A stretch of 64,000 nucleotides of DNA from Protonemura montana (taxonomy: Eukaryota > Arthropoda > Insecta > Plecoptera > Nemouridae), in NCBI GenBank assembly GCA_947568835.1, contig OX387602.1, positions 29,099,633 through 29,163,632 of the forward strand, written 5' to 3'. The position numbers were made by a program, and so were the translations under genes. This document shows, in pieces, positions 14-42,994 of this stretch. Each line of letters begins with the position of its first letter. The stretch's first letter is position 1. Under the pieces are notes generated by a model. The model saw only the letters and a list, made by a program, of their open reading frames with translations. It did no database searches and was not told where the DNA came from.

Positions 14-593
14 ATGGAACAAATGAATGCAGAAGGAAAGACAATTACTGCCACAGTTCAAGCTTCTTCAGTTTGTAATGAGAAGTTTTGGTGGGGATAA
101 CGTCAACTAATTTAAAAGTACATACACCTAATTGTTTTGCACAGCGAGATTGCATTGCTGAATCGCCGAACAGCGAAGACGATAAGTTGAACGAAATGAG
201 AGAAATGCAAAATCAAAATGATTCCCGCTCGAGTGAGTTGCAAAAACTGAATTCGCGTTTCAATTTCCATATTGAGTCTGGATTGATCGATGGCGATGAT
301 ACCGTTTGCTGCAAGACCTCCGCGTCTTCGCCAATCCAATTTTGTGAAACCAAGGATTTCGTCACTGGCTGGGCGCTCTCGGCGCTAGTGTTGCTCGTTT
401 CTCTGGAAGCACAGAGCGCTTCTCCTGGAACAAACCAGGTTCGATTGGTACTGGGGTCTGGATGGGATCTACCTCGCCTAAAGGCATCTGCGTCCTGCAT
501 TTCTCTTACGGCCACCGCCAGGAGTACATCTGGGTTGCTGAGCGAATCGCTCTTAAAAGCTACCACCTTTTGAAGGTTTATAGTGCACCACAA
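14..593. other. Weak coding-like patch, unidentified
   Basis: A T-rich tract ending in AG is followed directly by an ATG at 14 whose frame stays open to a stop at 98-100. A second plus-strand frame is open from about 88 to 573, and its first 70 or so residues are rich in Glu, Asn, Gln, Ser and Arg, like a short coiled coil. The minus strand is also open from 593 to 213 with ordinary composition. I recognise no domain in any of these frames. The two plus frames would need a frameshift or a splice to join, so this could be an exon cut by the window edge, a decayed gene or element fragment, or chance. I favour chance or a relic. Confidence 0.18.
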
Positions 594-3500
594 CCAGTGA
601 CTGCGTAGTTCTTGTCAACATTTTGCATAGCAAACATCAGTAAACGTTTGTGAGTTGAGACGAAATTGCACACATTTTGAACCGCATTAAAGCGTTGATT
701 GCAGTACTTTTTCTGTCGAAGATATGTCTTCATGGGCCTGAATGCATCTGTGACTTTATCGCGTCGAGATAAATGATAAAAGCAACGGCTAAACGTGTTA
801 TTAATATAAATTGATAAGTCTAGTCTCTGCAGAGAGTAATCTAATAATGTATTCATATCATAAAATATGAGTGTGGGTGGAGCATGGGATGCGATTGCTC
901 GTCGGTGGCTGGATATGCCGGCAACGTAACTTCACCAAAGGCTACAACCAAGCTGGAAATTAAAATAAACATTCGTAATTGCATGCCGTTGCCGTTCTTG
1001 GCATATTTTTCTTTAATTTTCTCTCGAAACTCTTTATTATGTGTTTGCATTTCGCCGTGGGTGAGGCAGAGGTTATTGCTGTAATGGTCGATGAGCCTGG
1101 GACGCGAGATTCGCGAGTCGCCGGCGGTAGCTAAGTTTCAAGCTTGAAACATTCCCCCTCCCTCCCGCCACACCCACGGGGTCCCATCCTCAACGATTGG
1201 AGTGACAGAATGCAGGTTGGTCATTTCGCGACGGATAAAATGATGCAAATCGAGAGCCGTATTCGACATTTTATTTCAATGCTGCAATGAAATTACGTTT
1301 GCAACGAAGTGACATGGCAATCGGCTGCTAGTTTCGGTCGCGAGTGCATGGAAATAGGAGTAAAACGCACGGTTATTTCCGCGAAAATTCTGTCAAAATA
1401 AATCTGCTATATTTTGATTCACTTTGATGTTCAACAGTGTAAACAAATAACGACATGTTTTTATTTGATTGACATCTGCCAGTATTTATCTACGTTGGTA
1501 AATTCAATTAAATCAGTTTGTAATTCATTTTATTCAATTCCAGCGATTGATTCGATATCATCAAGGTACGAACATCGTTTATACCTGAGGCGGAATGTTG
1601 TTGCTGTGCTGATGCTAACTGGGGGCTGTTGTTTGAGAACTTTTTGGGATGGTATATGCACTACCCAAGGCGCGATGGTTATGGTTGATTAACTCCCCAG
1701 GTACCAAATCTATCGAGTTTTGGAGTACATTTTTTTAAAAACAAGTTCAAAAGGTCGATTCAGATTGCATTATAGTATTCTTGACACGTGGACTTGCGCA
1801 TGCCTCTTCTTACTACGAGAGCGAATGCAGAGAAATCTTGAAATCCGGAAATTTCAGGAAAAAAGTCGGAAACTGTCGCCTGTCGGCGCAAAAAGTGTTC
1901 GCAAGAAATCGCGCTAATGTGTCGGGATAATTTGATCTTTTAAGGTCCAGAGAAATCTTTTTCGAGGCAAAAGTAAACATGCTGGTGGTTTTTGGTTGAC
2001 AGAGGACGCTAATGGATAGTCGTATGTCAGAAGGTGCGCTTGGTGTTGACTCGATTGCATCTCTGCAGAATCATCATAATAATATTGGTCCAGTTTTGAT
2101 GAGAGGAAATTACGAAAAAGTTTTCATTGATTGCAAAAACATTGTTGGGGAAAAAGATATTTAAAGCAAAATCAAATTTCATGGATTCAAATAATTAAAA
2201 AAGAAATGTGTGTGTTTTTTTTTGGATGCTATGAAAATATTGACCAACGAATGAATAATGGTTAGCATAGATCAAACAATGAACGCGGATAAAAAGTAAA
2301 GCATCCTAGTTTTAAAATCAACTTCGGTCCAATTTTGTTAAATAAAGCGCAGAACGGTCAGATGATATTGCCTTGCTACTTGAAAGTAACATCTCCTGTG
2401 TAACCCTCTTACACCCCCTCTACTACACATACCCCCATCCCTACAACCACACAACCAAGACACATAATTGTACACAATTGATAAGTAGAATCATCTTCCC
2501 CGTCGATAAACTGATACCACGACCAATTTGATCCCCGCCAGTTTGTGAAGACAAAGAAATTGAACATCGTTCATCATCTGAAAGTGATTTCCTCGAACGA
2601 GCGAAGCTAATCTTTAGCCCATCAATCACGCGAACCGCTTTTCCTTGCATCCGACGAGATTGTATTTCCTTACCTTCCCCGCGCGACCAGCTTCACCTTC
2701 GACCGGGGCCCGCAAAGATCGTTCCGAATCCATTTGTCCAAATCGCAAACTGATTGAATCTGCATCGATGTCGACGCCCTGCAGGCACCAAGAGTCGACG
2801 TCGAGTGCACAGCGTTCACCGAGGCTACCAATGGTAGACCGACCTATTCAATATTCTCCAAGCGACAGGCCGTGACGGCCAGTATAGCCACCTAAGTGTG
2901 TGGGGGCGATTTCCCAGTTATAATCACATCAATCACTCCGTTATGGCTTATCAATTTGTGGCCGAAAAACAGGCCTGGCAAGAGGGCTTAGAGGGGGGGG
3001 GGGGCGAATTTGAATGCCATTAAATGCAGACTCAGCGACCATTGCCGCTTGATGGTCTACTCTTTTCCAGGGGGGTGGAGGGGGCTGCAAACTTACCTCG
3101 TTCAAGTCGCCGGGCTCGCACACACACACGTCAAAAACTGTTTTGTATGTTTTCAAATTGCACCGAGTCGACTTGGGCCAGATGTGTCATGTTAAACATG
3201 CATGATAGGATTGTTAATCAAACGGTCCGACTTTAATAAATTCACGATTGAAAATTATGCCTCGCACGAAAGAGGGGTGCCAGTCGAGGTGCCCGGCGCC
3301 TCCACCGTCACGCGATCGAAGCGGTGACGTCACGGGCTCGAAATGAATGAGATCGGGTTTAATTAGTCCGCGCCGCGGCGGTGGATTTGTCGGCGTCGAG
3401 TTGTAAACATGCAATAACACGACGGACAACATCATAACTTCGTCTGGTTCGGGGGACGCGTGCAATGTGTGTCGGGGATAATGTCGATACTGACATTGAA

Positions 3501-6072
3501 GCAGGGGCTTTCATCTTTATTATCTTATATCAGGACAAGTGTTGGAAAGTGGTGGATCCCAAGGTGGATCTATTTCGTTCTTGTTCGGTGGGAATGAGGC
3601 TTTGAAATTCATGCTCATAACATATTGGATGCCATTATAAAGATTCCACGAATTAACCTAGACCATATAAGCCATGCGTACATGTCTAAATTTCAGCGGC
3701 CAAATATTTTCTACCTGTATGTATGCACAGAATTGAAGTAATGGCGGTACCGTCGAAAGTTTCTGGTTCATGTCTTTAGAGTCATATTTTAAGCCCTTTT
3801 GAATAGTGGTTATCTGTAGTGGAGATAGACAAGTTTAAAGATGTCGGCAATATATAAATGCGGGACACAGTTGAAAATAATTTTCCATATACACGCCGTT
3901 CCGGGGGGCGACCGCGAAAAGCCTAAAAAGGGGCGCCGAGCCGACTCCGGCGCGGCGGGGGGTGCCGTTGTAGTGTGATTGTAGTCCACACTCTCGTCGT
4001 CGGCCTCCCGGCCAAACAAGCTAACACAAACACGAGACCCGGCTCGTAAAGCCGACTTTAACGATGGACGAGCGATGAACGGCGTTCGGCCGGCTTGGAA
4101 CACAACCCCGCACCAGGTTTACTGCCCCTGGCAACGTCAATTACAGCCGCGAAATTACCTTTTATTTCTGGGCGAACACGATGTATTTCCGAGATGGTTT
4201 CAAGCAGCGATGTTCCCAGTTGTTGCCATGGCATCGCGGTTTAACGATCTGATCGAAACTTGTCTGAGGTCACTTTTAGAGCCCTGGTAATCAGCTTGGA
4301 GAGGGTCGCCTTCGACACCCGGCAGGAGTTGGATAATTGGACAGATTGCAACACTCGACTAGGTGCTAGGAAATGTTCTCTCGTCTCTTCGATAAAGACT
4401 TTATACTCTTACAAAACTCTATCACCTAAATGAAAAAAAAAAACTAAAAAAAAAAATCACATTTGCGACCTTTGTGACACGCCCAGTTTTTTCAATCCCG
4501 CAAATATATTTTGGCCTCGCCGGAGTTTAGGAAATAATGGCCATCAATTTTATAACCGGGTTTTCCCGTTCGCAGAGTTTTCCGGGACGTCTTTTCCGCG
4601 CGTTTCATGTAGTTTCCAATCACTTTCCGATCGCATTTGTGTAATCGAACGTCAAACGGACGCTCGCTGGCGTCGGGCGTCGGGACGCATGTCACAACTA
4701 GAAATCGTACCGTGTGCATATTTTATGTAAATCTCATTTGAAGAAATGTTGTTTGATCGATATGTTTAAAGAAGTGGGGCAGCACACTTCGAGAAAGCTG
4801 CTCGAGAAAGCCGAGTGCGTTTTTCCAATATTTGCCTCGCGCTTTTCCACAAAGAAAAAGTGACACGGAATTAAACCTGGTTTTCGTGAGTTGCACTGGA
4901 TGTTTCAATGACCTGGCCGTCCGCTTGAGCCAGAATGAACACTCCCGCTGCTGGCGCCACTTTCCGCGTGAGATAACAGAAGGAGAAAGAGAAGAAAAAG
5001 AAGAAGAAAAAAGATCAAGAAAGTAATCTAAAGAAAACTAAACTGCCAGATAAAAGTACATAACGACTCCTCGAAAGCCATGTATATTTGGATGGGGTCT
5101 CTGCTAGAGATCAAACCGGCCGCGTTCGCCGTCCATTAACGCGCGTAACTTTATTGCGCCCCTAAAGAAGAACGGCCTCCCGTACCCTCCTCCTGCCCCT
5201 CACCAGCGCCGACCTGATACACTTTTCTCCACGGTAATTCTCGAAACTTTGTCGCGGCCTGCTCGAGTCTTCAACGGCCACCCGCGCGTTCTTTAGTTTT
5301 ATTTACGTTTGACCTCCTCCGAGGATAAAACCCCCGACCCCCGGCGCGGATCCAGTCAAGTTGGATTACGTTAATTACCTTTTTAATGGATTCCTTGTTT
5401 TACGGCCCTCTCGGATCGGGTGCTCGTCTTCCGTGGTCGTCGCACTCCGTCGCCTCCCACGCAACAGAGTTTTTTGGGCGCAAGAAAAGGGTGGAAGAAG
5501 CTCGCGGCGGTTTTGGGTTGTTTATGTTGAATGCCACTCAAACAACACTAAACAGACAGGCGTATGAAGTACTTGCATCACGTCATCGAGTACGTCACGT
5601 GATTGCGTGATTGATTTCAATTGCTCACTGCGATAATCAGTATCACAGTGTTTTTCTGCTCGACTTTTTCATTGAAAATGATTTTTATTGGTTTACCTGC
5701 GTTTTTTGTCATGTTTTTTTGATATATCTCATTCATTTTTTTTCAACGCACGTGTAGGTCGAGCAATGAAATCGTTCAAGTATTGCTTTTCCACGAAAAT
5801 AAAACCTGTGAGGTATAAACTGGAGCTTTCCGTGCAATATTGTCACGACATGAGATGTAGGAAAGCATCCCTGCTGCGGCTTGGCATAGATCCCAACCGC
5901 ATTCACCGAGCAACAAGGAAAACAGCTTCCTTTACGACGTTAATGCATTCTTGGAATCAATCTCGGCTCCAAGATCTGCAAAGCGTGAGAACTCACCATT
6001 AACACGTCACCCACGTGTGATGCGATCGTACGGATATCCCGTGAGAACGCGTGACGCCATTGAACTTTTCCA
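594..6072. other. No gene recognised
   Basis: Single-copy-looking DNA. All frames are short and lack recognisable domains. Landmarks are a 12-base G run at 2993-3004, a CpG-rich patch around 3290-3400 and an A-rich stretch at 4433-4457. A GTAAGT-type donor-like site on the minus strand near 3094 and another near 2672 have no convincing acceptor to pair with, so no exon is called. Confidence 0.5.
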
Positions 6073-6820
6073 CCGAACGCTTTGGAGCGTTGTAAAACAT
6101 CTGTTACCATGGGTTCGTAGAAGTTAAGCAACACCGAGCTGAGTCAGGTATCGGATGGGTGACTCTCTAAAGATGAGAAGGCCAGAGAGGCTGAAGATAG
6201 GAAAGGTAGTCCTTCTTGCCATGCTTATGCATGTCTCGACAGCTGTGGAAGAATTTTTTTGTTAGAGTTGTACGGTCCTTTGAAAGGGAAAACCGAACGG
6301 TTTGGCGTGTTGGAAACACCGGTTCTCGTTGGATCACCGAAGTTAAGCAACACTGCGCAGAGTCAGGTATTGGATGGGTGACAATTATGCACATGACCAG
6401 TTCTGTTCGGGAGAGAGGATGGAGGGATGAAAGTTAGTACAGCAACTTCACTCGCCTTGCTTATCAACCTCTCGACAGCATGGATTTGTGGAGGAATCCT
6501 GTTGTTCGAGTTGTACCGTCCTTCGGACGTTAAGCCGGTGGTCCCCTTTGTGCTCTTCGACAGGAGTAGGCTACGTGCCGGCACCGGGTTTCCCCTCCTC
6601 CCTTCTAGGCTAGATAAGGTGTATCATCATCATCCTCATCATCATCATCCACTCTTTCACCGACGCCATTAGACCAGTGCCGCATGGCCAGATGTCAAAA
6701 CAGTGCGTCGTTAAACACCACAAATAAAATAAAATGAAATGGAAGTTAAGCCGGTGGTTCTCTTGTCCTCTCGGTGCCAGGATCGGGCGTAGGTAAGGCT
6801 AGGTAACTTCTATCATCATC
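6073..6820 (+). mobile_element. Older 5S-derived SINE, split by a younger copy
   Basis: The left part runs from CCGAACG at 6073 through a recognisable 5S segment (AAGTTAAGCAACACC, then GGATGGGTGAC) into the body of the family. It breaks off after GTACGGTCC at 6290. The missing body sequence resumes at about 6735 (GGAAGTTAAGCCGGTGG) and fades near 6820 at the TCATCATC run, without the usual 3' tail. The interrupting sequence at 6291-6734 is a younger member of the same family. Divergence from the other copies is clearly higher than in the inner copy. Confidence 0.8.
6291..6734 (+). mobile_element. Full-length 5S-derived SINE, nested
   Basis: This 444-bp copy is complete. It has a CCGAACGGTTTGGCG head, a 5S rRNA-like segment containing AGTTAAGCAACACTG and TTGGATGGGTGAC, and a spacer with TTCTGTTCGGGAGAGAGG. 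The body includes GGTTTCCCCTCCTCCC, followed by a TCATCATC-type microsatellite, the 3' tail ending in GCGTCGTTAAACACC, and an AAAT-rich end. The flanks carry an imperfect 10-bp duplication, TGAAAGGGAA at 6281-6290 and TGAAATGGAA at 6735-6744. The host is an older copy in the same orientation. A SINE encodes no protein and relies on a LINE for mobility. The 5S part is the presumed Pol III promoter. Confidence 0.88.
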
Positions 6821-14624: not shown

Positions 14625-14754
14625 ATTAGATGGTAAACATCTAATAAGTTGTTGAAAAGGAGGCTAGACTGGAATAATGAGCGACTGAACTGGGATACAA
14701 ACCCGGGACCTCCCAAGTGTCGGTCGGGTGCTCTACCGACTGAGCTATCCGGAC
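14625..14754 (-). mobile_element. tRNA-derived SINE-like repeat
   Basis: The minus strand from 14754 gives an acceptor-like GTCCGGA, a D arm GCTCAGTCGGTAGAGC matching the A box, an anticodon stem CCCGA/TTGGG around a seven-base loop, a short variable region and a T arm with CCGGGTTTGTATCCCAG. The 3' acceptor strand does not pair with the 5' one, the base before the predicted GAC anticodon is C instead of T, and one T-stem pair is mismatched. It therefore cannot be a normal tRNA. About 60 bases of unrelated sequence follow the tRNA part, as in a tRNA-headed SINE. The end of the element is uncertain and no target-site duplication was identified. Confidence 0.6.
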
Positions 14755-15137
14755 ACACATATTTCAGCTTTCGCGGGGTGGGATAAGGGATCCATTAAAG
14801 AAGGAAAAAGTGGTTGTTATTTTAAAATTAAAACAAATCAAAAAATACCAAGAAAACGACCAAGTTTTCATTTTTGATGTTGTGTTACTTTTTAGAATGA
14901 AATACATTTTGAGATAAATGACTGTTCTCAAATAATTCGAACAGATGAGAGAAAGACAGATCTTTCATTCCTCTCAGCAGAGGACTGTAGAGTTGCTAAG
15001 ATGTAGAAATCAGACCGTGAAATTGTTCTCTGAAAATTACTGTTTTGCTAAAAGGAATACATTTTTATACTCTTTAAATATTTGTCTCATAAGAAACTTC
15101 AACTTCACTCGACTGAAGCCATCTTTATATCATGCGA

Positions 15138-16122
15138 CCGAACGGTTTGACGTGTTGGAAACACCGGTTCTCGTTAGATCACCGGAGTTAAGCAACACTG
15201 CGCTGAGTCAGGTATTGGATGGGTGACCATCATACACATGACCAGTTCTGTTCGGGAGAGAGGTTGGAGGGATGAAAGTTAAGCAACACTGCGCTGGGTC
15301 AGGTATTGGATGGGTGACCATCATACACATGACCAGTTCTGTTCGGGAGAGAGGTTGGAGGGATGAAAGTTAAGCAACACTGCGCTGGGTCAGGTATTGG
15401 ATGGGTGACCATCATACACATGACCAGTTCTGTTCGGGAGAGAGGTTGGAGGGATGAAAGTTAAGCAACACTGCGCTGGGTCAGGTATTGGATGGGTGAC
15501 CATCATACACATGACCAGTTCTGTTCGGGAGAGAGGTTGGAGGGATGAAAGTTAAGCAACACTGCGCTGGGTCAGGTATTGGATGGGTGACCATCATACA
15601 CATGACCAGTTCTGTTCGGGAGAGAGGTTGGAGGGATGAAAGTTAAGCAACACTGCGCTGGGTCAGGTATTGGATGGGTGACCATCATACACATGACCAG
15701 TTCTGTTCGGGAGAGAGGTTGGAGGGATGAAAGTTAAGCCACACTGCGCTGGGTCAGGTATTGGATGGGTGACCATCATACACATGACCAGTTCTGTTCG
15801 GGAGAGAGGTTGGAGGGATGAAAGTTAGTACATCAACTTCATTTGCCTTGCTTATCAACCTCTCGACAGCATGGATTTGTGGAGGAATCCTGCTGTTCAC
15901 GTTGTACCGTCCTTCGGAAGGAACGTTCAGCCGTTGGTCTCCTTGGTCTTCGACAGGAGTAAGCTACGTGCCGGCACCAGGTTTCCCCTCCTCCCTTCCA
16001 GGCTAGGTTAGGTTCATCATCATCATCATCATCATCCACTCATTGAGCGACACCATTAGACCAGTGCCGCATGGCCAGATGTCAAAACAGTGCGTCGTTA
16101 AACACCACAAATAAAAAAGAAA
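15138..16122 (+). mobile_element. Young 5S-derived SINE with an internal 91-bp array
   Basis: This 985-bp element is flanked by a perfect 13-bp target-site duplication, TTATATCATGCGA, at 15125-15137 and 16123-16135. It starts at CCGAACGGTTTGACG, carries the 5S segment, and ends with the TCATCATC run and the GCGTCGTTAAACACC tail plus an A-rich end. Its excess length over the family's usual 430-444 bp is explained by six extra copies of a 91-bp segment at 15187-15823. Removing those six copies gives 439 bp, as expected for a full element. The perfect flanking repeats and near-identical units indicate a recent insertion or recent expansion. Confidence 0.92.
15187..15823 (+). repeat. Seven tandem 91-bp units carrying 5S promoter boxes
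   Basis: Units start at 15187, 15278, 15369, 15460, 15551, 15642 and 15733, each exactly 91 bp. Each contains the 5S box A region (GTTAAGCAACACTGCGCTG), then box C (TTGGATGGGTGACC), then about 49 bp of SINE spacer ending GGAGGGATGAAA. Unit 1 has CTGAGTCAGG where units 2-7 have CTGGGTCAGG, and unit 7 has a single A-to-C change in GTTAAGCC. Otherwise the units look identical by eye. The array ends where GATGAAAGTTA continues into GTACATC instead of AGCAACAC. Confidence 0.95.
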
Positions 16123-19100
16123 TTATATCATGCGATTCCTATGTCTTTCTGACTACGGTTTCTGATCTCGTTGGCTTGACCAGAAGAAGCGAGATGAAAC
16201 AATTGACTTCTTCCTACAAATGTTTGCTTTGCGCGGCGTAGTGGCCGTGTCCAGGATACAGTGCAGGCTCGGCGCTCATCTTTTGATTATTGTCGCCGAC
16301 GATTGCCGATGATCATTTCAGAGGCTCGTGACCGTCTGCCCGCCATTTGTTTTCATATTTATTCAACGTGTGTATTTGCATTGGCGTGTTCGTTCGTTTG
16401 TTTGTACGTTTTATCGGAACTTGTTTGAAAAGCGTAATTAAATTGATATTTGCTTGCGGAAAAGGCTTCGGTTTCTAAGTAGAGTTTGTGTGCAGCGGTG
16501 GTTCGGTCTCTGAAACTACTGCCTTGAAAGCGTGCACCGACTGTCGTAGTTTTTTCTTGCCATGATTGCTTCGAGATGAGATTAACCTTTTGCTCGAAGA
16601 GTAATTAAATGGTTTAATCAGCGAGTAAACAGATGTACCGAGTGGAGAAATCAATTCGGTTCACTTACGAAATGCACTTGCAAAACTTGAATGGCGTCAT
16701 GGGCGCTGAGTAAAACATGCATAGAAACTACCGCGTAAACTCATCGTGGTTTCTCATTAATTATCTTTTATTATTATTTCATACGAAAACCTACACACAC
16801 ACAGACCCAAAAAAAAACTTTTCACATCGCTCGCTTAGAGAAGTTTTTGGTATTTATTTTAATTGTACCTCTACATAGTTTTTTTTTTTTTTGGCTTTAT
16901 AATGTAACTAAATTATAGCCGTGCGCTTTTAGTTTTAATTAAATGAGCTTTTTTCCCCTCTTTTGTTGCCCCGCGAAAGATAACAGCAGAAAACACAGAA
17001 CTCTGTATGAAGAATTAAGAGCTAGTTTAGCTCATTATTAAGAATGAGGAGCCAGCTCACAGTTCGTCGTTTGTTTTGCCAAAAAAACAAGAAGCGAACT
17101 AAAAGAGTCAACAGATCCCGGCAGCAACGTATCATCCGGTGTGTGTACCCATCTCGTTGCCACGGAGACGTTGTGCAATTTCAATTCAATTATTTAATTA
17201 CGTCCGCTTTTTATTTGTGCATCTCTTAATTGATTCTCGTCACGGCACGTTGGATTGTTTTACTATCACGAGGTGCGGTACGTTGATTTCAATACTTACT
17301 GCTTTCCAAAGCTTACTGGATTCACAGGCTCTAGTATAGGCTTGCTATCGAATCTTCTGGAAGAATCAGAAGCAACTTCCAGTAGCTAGTTTTGCTGTGG
17401 CGGTAGATTTTGTTACCTCCAGCACCGAGCATTGTTGAAGCTAAGGAACATCACCAGGGAAATATTTTAGTGTAAAAACACTACCAGTTTTCCTCATCAA
17501 AGCATAAACACAGAAAACTCTGCGATCTGTCACGTCTTGCCAAGATCAACAGGATGCCTAAAAAAGTTAGGTTGGATCTGTTATGCAAGATTATGATGTT
17601 AGAGTTTGTAGATTACATAATACTTAGATTGAATGAGCACTATTCATAAAATACTTTGCCCATTGCAAGAATGTCCAATTGAAAGCCGAGTTCACTGCAC
17701 AAAACGCATCCAACGTCAAATTGTGATTACTCGAGATTGACAGGTTGTGACGTGGTATATAGCGTCACTGGAATCAGAGTGACTGTGAGTATTCACAGTC
17801 TCGTGGTTATCTTTCTTGGAGATCCGTCATTCTCGTCAAAGGCACTAAAATCGTTTCGAAAATTACATTTATAATCAGCTCAATTGGTGAGAGCAACACC
17901 CGCGGCAGGTGGAAATCGGAAAAGTACCGATTTTTGATAGGTTATTAGTCTTTTTAATAATAAAGTTCTTTGTCAATTGCAAAAATGTGTAATTTAAATC
18001 AAATATCATGACATAATATTAATTTAATTGCACAATATTTTTGTGTGCAAGAAATCAACTTGACGCAGTCAAGTTCCCCACCTGCACTGTTGATGCCATT
18101 CCTACAAGTATAGGTAGCGCTAATGGTGGACCATTGCTGCATTTCATGCCACATTGAAATCACCGGCTGAAACGAACAAAATACAATTAAATTATGAAAA
18201 ACGACGCTTAATTTTCATCGTGCAGGTCGCGAGAATAAACGTTTCAACGATTCATTTCCCCCGAAGCCGAACAAAAACATTATCGCTCCCGAACCGCGAT
18301 CCATTACAATAGATGGCACCCGATGACCGTTTCCTGCGTTTCGCCAAATCCAACCCCCCGCCCCCCCCGCTTTACGTTACAATGGAGTTTTTACACCGGG
18401 ACAGTTCATTTTCGACCGTGTGCACGCTGAACGCTGTCAAACGCCCTCGCCCGGCGCTTCCTGTTTCGCGAACTGGCGTCCACGCTCCATTGTTTTTCGC
18501 TTGCAGCGATGGCTGCAATATAGAAGCGCCGGTGACACTTGCATCGGTAAATCGATCTCTATCACAGTGGACGTAATTTCCGATGCTCTGACGTTTTATC
18601 AGAACAAACTTATTGAAAATTAATTGATTCTGCCATTGTTTTTAAGCGAAAATAAAATTAATTTGTATTTATTACTTTGCCAAGCTGTGCCATGCAACTT
18701 TGCCCTGTTGTATCAATCACCGTAAGTATCATAATTGCATAACATTATATTCATAAGCAGCGTGAAATTTATAACAACGCTGTGCGCTTAGTTTCCTAGC
18801 GAGTTACGTCCGCGTCGACGAGCTGGTTAATTAATTAGCAGTTTGTCAGGTAGGAGCGCGTCTGGTGGTCTCTCGATGAACTAAACTGCCGAACTGTGCG
18901 CGCCATCTGGTGATGGTTGGTTGTTTTGCACGCACGGCGACATCTAGGTGGTGGCTGCAACGTATGGTTCACATAATTCCGCCGAAATATCTGGTGCGGG
19001 AGAGTTGTCGGAGGGTAATAAAATTATTGATATTTTGTTATCATGACATACCCAATCAAAACGAAATATCCGGGCCTTAATGTTTGGTACCAAAAAGCGA

Positions 19101-40150: not shown

Positions 40151-40998
40151 TGTGGAGTTTAGCGACGTAATGTTTTGACAACGGTCAGTTCGGAAATGGT
40201 CTAATGGCTTCGGTGAATGAGTAGATGAAGAACTTACCGAGCCTAGAAGGGTGGAAAAAACTACCCGATTTTGGCAAGGAGAGAATTCCTGGCGAAGAGC
40301 GCTTAGATAATCACAGGATTAACGATCTTTAAAAAAGAAAATTTGAAAAGGATGCCTCCACTAATGCATCCTGTTAAGAGATTAATAAGCAAGACAAGTG
40401 AAGAAGCTGTACTAATAATCTTTCCAACCTCTCCGTCTCTCCCGAACAGAACTAGTCATACCGAACGGTTTGGCGTGTTGGAAACACCGGTTCTCGTTAG
40501 ATCACCGAAGTTAAGCAACACTGCGCTGAGTCAGGTATTGGATGGGTGACCATAATACACATGACCAGTTCTGTTTGGGAGAGAGGTTGGAGGAATGAAA
40601 TTTAGTACAGCGACTTCACTCGCCTTGCTTATCAACCTCTTGACGGCATGGATTTGTGGAGGAATCCTGCTGTTCGCGTTGTACCGTCCTTCGGAAGGGA
40701 CGTTAAGCCGGTGGTCCCCTTGGTGCTCTTCGACAGGAGTAGGCTGCGTGCCGGCACCAGGTTTCCCCTCCTCCCTTCTAGGCTAGGTTAGGTTCATCAT
40801 TATCCACTCATTCACCGACGCCATTAGACCAGTGCCGCAGGGCCAGTTGTCTACACAGTGCTTCGTTAAACACCACAAATAATAATAATAGAACTAGTCA
40901 TAATCCGATAATAATCCGATAAGGTCACCCATCCGACACCAAACCCGTCGCAGTGTTGCCTAACTTCGGTGATCTCACTAGATCCGGTATTGTTAACT
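40151..40998 (-). mobile_element. Older 5S-derived SINE, split by a younger copy
   Basis: The minus-strand copy starts near 40998 with its 5S head (the plus strand shows CCTAACTTCGGTGATC and GGTCACCCATCCGACACC), which runs down to 40903. It is interrupted by the plus-strand element at 40461-40889 plus its duplicated target. It then continues from 40460 through the spacer (TCTCTCCCGAACAGAA), the body and the tail GTGGAGTTTAGCGACGT at about 40156. Joining the two outer parts restores the normal family order. The copy is more diverged than its insert. Confidence 0.82.
40461..40889 (+). mobile_element. Full-length 5S-derived SINE, nested
   Basis: This 429-bp copy lies between perfect 13-bp duplications, AGAACTAGTCATA, at 40448-40460 and 40890-40902. 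It has the CCGAACGGTTTGGCG head, a single 5S segment without tandem expansion, the spacer, the complete body with CTTCGGAAGGGACGTTAAGC, a short TCATCATT run, and a tail in which GCGTCGTTAAAC has become GCTTCGTTAAAC. It ends in AATAATAATA. It inserted into the spacer of an older minus-strand copy of the same family. Confidence 0.93.
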
Positions 40999-41069
40999 CG
41001 GCGTTGTTTTAAAAAGTGTACCAAGCACGAGCAATTCATGAACATATCATTGACAAAAAGTTACCAGTA

Positions 41070-41476
41070 TTTATTTATTTATTTGTGGTGTTTAACGACG
41101 CACTGTTTTTACATCTGGCCATATGGAACTGGTATAATGGCGTTGGTGAATGAGTGGATGATGATGATGAGGATGATGATAAACCTAACCTAGCCTAGTT
41201 GCTGTACTAACTTAACTTTCATCCCTCCAACCTCTCTCCCGAACAGAACTGGTCATGTGTATGGTGGTCACCCATCCAATACCTGACTCAGCGCAGTGTT
41301 GCTTAACTTTCATCCCTCCAACCTCTCTCCCGAACAGAACTGGTCATGTGTATGATGGTCACCCATCCAATACCTAACCCAGCGCAGTGTTGCTTAACTT
41401 TCATCCCTCCAACCTCTCTCCCGAACAGAACTGGTCATGTGTATGATGGTGTTTCCAACACGCCAAACCGCTCGGT
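41070..41476 (-). mobile_element. 5S-derived SINE with 91-bp duplication and internal deletions
   Basis: This minus-strand copy is flanked by the 14-bp duplication AAAAGTTACCAGTA at 41056-41069 and 41477-41490. Reading from 41476, the head CCGAGCGGTTTGGCG reaches GGAAACACC and then jumps straight to ATCATACACATGACC, losing the first 5S segment. Two full 91-bp promoter units follow, at 41302-41392 and 41211-41301. After the second unit an extra AGTTA precedes GTACAGCAAC. Most of the body is then missing, joining directly to TAGGCTAGGTTAGG, the microsatellite and the 3' tail with an AAAT-type end. Confidence 0.9.
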
Positions 41477-42994
41477 AAAAGTTACCAGTAGAAAAGACCC
41501 AAAGAAACGAAGGTAATATTCGTGCGATAACGCGCTGTGTTTTCGATTACACAGCTTTCTCAAAGAGCGGTGTTTCATCTTTGTCCCTATCCTCTCAAGT
41601 GTATCTCTCGGATGATATCTGTCTCAATTTGGGTCACTCGTTTCCCCATCTGTCCGCTAAATACAATACACTTTACCACGACGCCTTCCATTGCGCACAT
41701 CTTTGCGGTCGTTCCCTCGGCACTCTTTAAAGACGTCCTGAATGTCTTTCCAGGACCCGCGTTCCTGCACCACTAGCGCCGCCAATGGAAACGCGGAATT
41801 TTGCAAAACTAATTAGAAAAGCAGTTACATGAGTCCCAAGAGTAAGTCTGTCGTCCTCAGCAACATTCTTGCTGTTTTGCCGCCTGGCAAGAGGAGTTAT
41901 TCTCTTTCTAGATTCTAAATGATATTCTTTTGAAATCAGCGAACAAATGAAAAAATAAGCTGGAATAAAACAGCGTTAAAGAAACTAATTTCAAAGGCGT
42001 TTATGATTTCTTTGTGCGCGAGCGCGACGACAGCGTTGGCAGCGTTGGCAGCGTTGGCAGCGTTGGCTTATTTAAAGCTGAATATGTAGTGAAAATGTTC
42101 ACCATTCAATTTTCCATGTAATTGATCTGATTATTTTCTTCACTGCCATCAATTTTCTATGAATTGTCCAGGAATTTTCCAGGAATTGCGTTGCACTTCG
42201 CCATTTAAGTCTTTCTAAAAAAAAAATCTGTAATTTGCGATTTTGACAAAGATGACTTGACAGTTAAAATCGATTGTCTAATCACCCTGCTTTGACCTCT
42301 CGACTCTGCAAACAAAACGTCACTTAAAAGTTCAGAAATTCGAAGTGGCCGCGTTTTAAAAAGAAACGCCATTTAGATTTCCTTTGACGCGTTTAGAAAC
42401 AAAAGAAAACAAACGCGAATTAGGTTTGTGCCAAGAAGTCTGGCATTCTTTTAATTCGATTGAGTGAAATTAAGCCGCGTTACCCCCTCGACGTGGTCAC
42501 GACGCTCTCGTGCGGCGTGCGGCGTCGCCTTTGAAGTCTCTCGACGACGAGCGTCGCGACGCTCGAGACGCTCGTCCACGGGCGACGGAGGAATCGCTGC
42601 AGGCTCGACGCCTCTCGACTTTGATGCGTTATTCCAACGAAACGCAGCGTATTTTAATTTTCTTTTGGTTTTTCGAGCGTGGAAAATATGTCAAACGCCG
42701 TTTCAAGGACATTTTCTTTCTCAAAAGTTCGACCTTACACTGTTTTTTTTTACTTGTTTTTGCTTCCCGAAATGGCGTCAGCTTTGTTGAAAGGACAATT
42801 TGTTCGAGAGTTAAAACCGTGGAATATTTTCTATTTCTTTAATGGAATTTATCAGTTACTTTTGTTGAGAAAAAACGCCTTTTAATAACGTATTTTCAAA
42901 GAATCACGAAACTGGATTTTTAATCGTACTCTTTTTAAAAACGTACTCACATTGATGTTAGGATTTCTCAAGTTCCAGAGACAGATCTACTAAC
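41477..42994. other. No gene recognised; 9-bp minisatellite and GC palindrome
   Basis: Contains the GCGTTGG array (42031-42066) and a CpG-rich block at 42478-42620 with an 18-bp palindrome. The frames at 42464-42885 are open in all three plus phases because of local composition, and no domain is seen. Confidence 0.45.
42031..42066. repeat. 9-bp minisatellite, CAGCGTTGG x4
   Basis: Four perfect tandem copies of CAGCGTTGG preceded by a GCG-rich lead-in. Confidence 0.9.

Follow-up and report, generated by a model that had tools for sequence, protein, structure and literature searches.

Satellites that come from tRNA-derived SINEs have been described from squamate reptiles as sSat1-3 (Vassetzky et al. 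2023, PMC10702118). As portrayed there, they resemble the tandem repeat dealt with here in several respects. The unit is shorter than the SINE and cut from it and, in snakes, has promoter sequence (box B), just as the present unit has a promoter part. Likewise, arrays of a few to hundreds of units occur at many loci with SINE termini as end units, unit variants alternate in long arrays, and orthologous loci differ in unit number. The squamate satellites prefer subtelomeric regions; here the long arrays lie mainly towards contig ends. However, the squamate SINE is tRNA-derived, whereas the present unit comes from a 5S SINE and contains box A and IE along with most of box C. Also, sSat usually keeps one SINE end, retention of both being uncommon, unlike the present case in which 16 of 32 arrays of at least three units (duplicates of one insertion included) span the element from its head to the exit into its body. 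No true dimeric Squam SINEs are reported in the sections of that account drawn on here, whereas one locus below, L015, indicates multi-unit retroposition. Its authors are uncertain whether SINE-derived satellites are restricted to squamates, and point to amphibians (newt, Xenopus OAX, Rana and Hydromantes) for older, inconclusive cases among Pol III tandem repeats.

For a promoter array within a retroelement, the nearest analogue is found in the mouse L1Md monomers, promoter repeats that lie in tandem at the 5′ terminus of a non-LTR element and whose number varies by copy (Zhou and Smith 2019, PMC6454616). L1Md is, however, a Pol II LINE and, in the parts of that paper pertinent here, its 5′ truncation sites lie near the monomer start site, whereas no such cluster is found in the small sample below. 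With regard to 5S sequence, the nearest analogue is the plant Cassandra TRIM, which combines 5S sequences, a Pol III promoter and long tandem arrays (Kalendar et al. 2020, PMC7215508). As characterized there, it is an LTR element whose tandem unit is LTR plus internal domain, but no LTR is seen here. A search of open-access papers, covering titles and the starts of abstracts, gave no SINE-derived satellite or tandem-unit 5S SINE outside squamates. What follows concerns a 5S-SINE version of a SINE-derived satellite, possibly mobile as an array.

The array-bearing element and its parent SINE

The window, i.e. the whole stretch of 64,000 nucleotides that was analysed, contains an element reported in a preliminary description as a 5S-type SINE with seven 91-bp periods. 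Both points hold, the first from an Rfam match and alignment to the genome's 5S gene, the second from TRF and direct reading. TRF gives 15186-15827, period 91, 7.1 copies and 99% matches with no indels, and direct reading gives seven 91-bp units at 15186-15822 (637 bp in total), one base away from the frame first assigned. Units 2-6 are identical to the letter, and the array has just two single-base differences, A for G at position 21 of unit 1 and C for A at position 9 of unit 7. Rfam RF00001 matches four SINE copies in the window, in this element at 15137-15257 with 58.1 bits (gathering score 38). The features are as follows.

15125..15136, no strand: 5′ target-site duplication (TSD) TTATATCATGCG, 12 bp, perfect copy at 16123-16134
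15137..15185, plus: H, the 5S-derived head and element start, 5S positions 1-49 (Rfam match, alignment to the genome's own 5S gene)
15186..15822, plus: seven 91-bp units, each an A part plus spacer S (TRF, unit list)
In each unit: A part of 43 bp, 5S positions 50-92, holding box A, IE and most of box C
In each unit: spacer S of 48 bp
15823..15992, plus: SINE body after the exit AGTTAGTAC (genome search with 15828-16110)
15993..16122, plus: (ATC)n stretch, 3′ region ending CGTCGTTAAACACCACAAATAA, and A-rich tail (sequence)
16123..16134, no strand: 3′ TSD, matching 15125-15136
6292..6730, plus: single-unit (ordinary) SINE copy, order H-A-S-B-T (Rfam 5S, 53.7 bits)
40461..40886, plus: single-unit (ordinary) SINE copy with 13-bp TSD AGAACTAGTCATA (Rfam 5S, 63.5 bits)
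41056-41069 and 41477-41490: 14-bp TSD AAAAGTTACCAGTA of the second array copy
41070..41476, minus: second array-bearing SINE copy, rearranged, with 5S 1-29 joined to spacer, then two units and a shortened body

The element spans 15137 to about 16122, and its target-site duplication is perfect, as first described; random window pairs share a word of at least 11 bp at a frequency of about 0.0008. Both box A and box C had been ascribed to each unit. This is correct for box A, but the 5S homology takes in box C only in part: in the alignment with the genome's own 5S gene, clear identity stops near 5S position 92. (The positions of box A, IE and box C in the 5S part are those at which we take them to lie.) The AGTTA at 15186-15190 is present again at 15823-15827, in agreement with the proposal of a duplication at this microhomology by which box A is restored in each unit. 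A tRNA-Val (GAC) gene is present at 14681-14754 on the minus strand, about 380 bp upstream of the array element.

The second array in the window, absent from the preliminary description, was found by TRF as a 91-bp period at 41211-41450 on the minus strand, in a copy that lacks most of its body as well as some of the promoter. At the single-unit copy at 6292..6730, comparison of the flanks revealed no target-site duplication.

The ordinary SINE monomer is about 440 bp and consists of H, A, S, body, ATC repeat and an AAATAA-type tail. The order H, A, S, body, ATC repeat and 3′ end is common in 40 sampled exits, with some copies truncated, and the 3′ region of the window element recurs in many sampled SINE copies. 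A 5S-derived head, target-site duplications, shortness, dispersal, high copy number and a simple-repeat tail make the family SINE3-like; no terminal direct repeat of the LTR kind, as in a Cassandra-type TRIM, occurs in the sampled copies, whose order is H-A-S-B-T. A shared end word of at least 7 bp is present in 17 of 30 listed elements and none in the other 13. Many copies begin at H1 and detected target duplications often end there, starts that fit, from sequence, a presumptive Pol III start site 49 bp ahead of box A, the spacing of the 5S gene. TTTT is absent from the unit, the body consensus and the window element. A literature text search with three stretches of the SINE sequence yielded no match.

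Abundance and chromosomal location

A genome-wide search for the spacer-to-box-A junction, as the preliminary description had proposed, finds it abundant outside the window locus, contrary to the absence named there as a refutation. With up to three mismatches, GGGATGAAAGTTAAGCAACACTG occurs 27,294 times in the 258-Mb genome and a reversed control pattern once; pattern counts for normal SINE entries and exits are 9,670 and 9,970. By multiplication, junction units of 91 bp amount to about 2.5 Mb, or 0.96% of the genome, these copy counts, like all unit numbers here, being those of the assembly alone. The order H-(AS)n-B-T is seen with n = 1, 2, 3, 4, 5, 7, 8, 9, 10 and 13, and one further array, of at least 16 units, ends at the edge of the fetched stretch. 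The suggestion of a retrotransposon-born satellite is supported. The accompanying suggestion that it is in its first stage is not, given the number of junctions and arrays that reach at least about 115 units.

A second tandem type has the whole 5S part head to tail with a period of 92 and 2,566 junctions. Its junction is GGGTGACC-ACCGAACGG, an example being at about 4365-4870 on the minus strand of L017. At C2:608810-609837, head entries are present in a run, spaced 91 bp. The first 15-16 bp of the spacer also form their own minisatellite at the 5′ end of arrays, at about 2336-2650 in L027 and at about 315-630 (minus-strand count) in L089. True 5S genes are found near a contig start (G000 C11:70-105743) in a pattern of about 9.5 kb with orientations +, - and +.

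Long arrays were sought with a 2.7-kb array as query, 32 of 8,644 candidates being scored, and merging of the listed matches over gaps of up to 600 bp yields 35 blocks, 32 of them at least 1.5 kb. The longest, on C12, has about 108 units in scored hits, with one 165-bp gap between listed hits; its left stretch continues as units up to the fetched edge, the 5′ border being beyond it, so that the array has at least about 115 units. The 3′ borders at C12, C5, C13, C15 and C1 pass into SINE body, and the C13 block, which comprises about 37 units, is bordered by H on one side and by body with tail (B-T) on the other. The remaining fetched borders are of units only or of unrelated sequence.

Of the 35 merged blocks, 31 are no more than 2.6 Mb away from a contig end, a distance picked after the positions were seen, and such ends constitute 23% of the length of those contigs. 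On C1, in a sample of 40 of the first 44 listed exact exits, at least two units are present at 7 of the 10 exits that lie below 1.8 Mb and at none of the other 30. Exits left out of this sample include one with seven units at 0.49 Mb (L015) and one with five at 8.96 Mb (L019, reverse); with both added, the figures are 8 of 11 versus 1 of 31 (P about 1e-5). Two C1 exits near 1.5 Mb are also outside the sample, and one of these has the junction one unit upstream. C1 is, in addition, array-rich at 19-27 Mb, partly within a larger duplicated block. The telomere repeat is absent at three of four fetched contig ends, where there are other satellites, and the fourth reads N; because of this, a subtelomeric position is unproven. 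Among L093, L094, L095 and L002-L004 there are satellites at contig ends, with repeats of roughly 100, 105 and 40 bp, and a different satellite, of 118 bp, that adjoins an array block common to C2, C11 and C13.

Turnover of units and proposed spread of arrays

The window array is, with good probability, one of many SINE-derived satellite arrays that come from a 5S-SINE and undergo turnover at the DNA level after spread. Its origin would be a tandem duplication at a short match between GAAGTTA (box A) and GAAAGTTA (spacer end), which would have fused spacer to box A to give a 91-bp unit with an internal promoter region. A founder with at least two units would then have been copied by retroposition to many sites. 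Inserted arrays gain and lose units at the DNA level, as examples show, and long arrays are located mainly towards contig ends and reach the lengths given above. At the window locus, units would have been amplified or overwritten after H and body had diverged.

Evidence for turnover comes from several loci. A repeating order of unit variants, in blocks of 4 or 5, is clear in L005, L006 and L022 and weaker in L013. L022+ and L023+ represent a single insertion within a block that has been duplicated, with both flanks at least 98% identical, and have 10 versus 9 units, one whole unit being absent. In L025 and L026-, also one insertion, four units are retained in each. (The latter pair was considered as a moved array, but equal flanks and equal TSD identify one duplicated insertion.) At the window locus the body is off consensus at 17 of 286 sites (5.9%) and the array at 2 of 637, a divergence whose lowness, at the unit rate of single-unit copies, has a Poisson P of about 1e-9; one of the two differences is the position-21 A that single-unit copies usually carry. 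In a search with 15828-16110 (41 rows, 40 of 4,236 candidates scored), no other body copy exceeded 94% identity, because of which the changes in the window body look private and the insertion is older than its array. Of the youth initially ascribed to the element, that of the units is supported, the array being pristine, but that of the whole element is not, its body being diverged. It was also considered that the pristine array came by recent retroposition, from a source whose body was just as diverged; this was rejected, with no close sibling among the 40 scored of 4,236. The first and last window units are near consensus as well, which makes overwriting, through gene conversion by other arrays, and amplification in place equally likely. 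Divergence of units and divergence of body are unrelated in a comparison of 22 arrays (rho 0.06).

Inverted pairs of arrays about 2-3 kb apart (L019, L022-L024 and L026) raised the issue of terminal inverted repeats of a larger transposon. For L022-L024 this was rejected because similarity extends kilobases past the SINEs and the centre of L022 has one ORF of 82 aa; the array SINEs there sit inside a larger duplicated block. That block (L022, L023 and L024, with parts in L026) is multi-kb, of about 95% identity, and carries two inverted array SINEs; in its 2.7-kb centre the only ORF of at least 80 aa is that of 82 aa, in L022. In L019 the inverted arrays are of three and five units, with mirrored 5′ flanks (99% identical) and 3′ flanks that differ.

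With regard to spread via RNA, L015 (C1, about 0.49 Mb) is the one clean case of a retroposed array. It begins at unit position 52, within the spacer directly before the next box A, and is flanked on both sides by AAACACTGGACTCC, a 14-bp shared word whose first three A may belong to the tail. Since this spacer start is bounded by a target-site duplication, the RNA that was copied must have held two units or more. Unit position 21 is also pertinent. It is A in 19 of 27 single-unit copies and G in 6, and G in 164 of 222 internal units. Inside arrays of at least three units, G exceeds A in 34 of 43, duplicates of one insertion included, and the nine exceptions include L015 itself (A 3, G 2); with hand-selected distinct insertions, the G majority is found in 11 of 14 (P 0.0008). 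Unit divergence is 5.4% within loci versus 5.7% between loci, a near-equality that speaks against each array having grown from its own single unit. Gene conversion could mimic both the shared position 21 and the divergence pattern. That the promoter-bearing array was itself retroposed, giving a mobile satellite whose ready-made multimer seeds are scattered over the chromosomes and then grow, or are overwritten, where recombination is frequent, is a proposal for and against which the balance is about even.

Alternative explanations and significance

A purely local origin, with recurrent duplication at AGTTA in single-unit insertions followed by unequal exchange and with no multimer retroposed, would account for some of the above. 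A junction dictated by microhomology could form repeatedly, contig ends are crowded with arrays, and the higher-order blocks and the 10 versus 9 units at one insertion also count in its favor. Nevertheless it is unlikely, as the partial-spacer 5′ end of L015 needs a two-unit RNA, internal units are mostly 21G where single-unit copies are mostly 21A, and units within a locus are nearly as diverged as those of different loci. For the window locus specifically, an assembly or polishing artefact, by which the true unit number would differ or units would have been made identical, draws on the identity of units 2-6, an outlier among sampled arrays. In the other sampled arrays of this assembly the units differ from consensus by a mean of 1.6 to 9.4%, the junction is abundant genome-wide and two unit differences have been kept in the window array itself, so that such an artefact is highly improbable.

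In a functional promoter array, Pol III would be recruited by each unit, much as the L1Md monomers serve Pol II in the mouse, and selection would favor extra units for transcription or for protection from 5′ truncation. For this reading it can be said that every unit contains box A and IE, together with most of box C, but no T4 run, and that arrays of both type I and type II include the box A-C part. The preliminary description envisaged seven Pol III start regions, provided that TFIIIA can bind each unit. Conservation does not favor the boxes over the spacer: in 244 internal units the A part has diverged by 2.5% and the spacer by 2.4%, and the number of these units with an intact box is 187 for box A, 224 for IE and 128 for box C. 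If initiation were internal, insertion ends would be expected at unit position 43. Among 60 array starts, 12 run off the fetched edge, 23 are in H, 10 match neither H nor unit well and 15 are in a unit, at positions 9, 10, 27, 29, 30, 39, 41, 41, 52, 56, 60, 61, 61, 77 and 86. In this small sample of 15, ends are not gathered at the predicted start. Three are within 4 bp of it, but these have other causes (L027 and L089 follow the 15-bp spacer minisatellite, and the minus-strand window copy is a fusion to H), and the TSD-bounded start of L015 is at 52. Working Pol III start sites in every unit, and with them the seven start regions, thus seem unlikely, and selection for a promoter array decidedly doubtful, though each unit may bind Pol III factors.

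Returning to the preferred reading, in which arrays from a 5S-SINE turn over at the DNA level after their spread, its significance is as follows. The origin of satellites is usually inferred from the end state. Here, one genome holds the ordinary element, intermediate arrays and arrays of about 100 units, several of them still joined to the SINE. With body divergence dating the insertion and unit divergence dating the array, there is opportunity for tests of when and where units multiply. SINE-derived satellites, in the literature found so far described from squamates with tRNA SINEs, would hereby be extended to a 5S-derived SINE.
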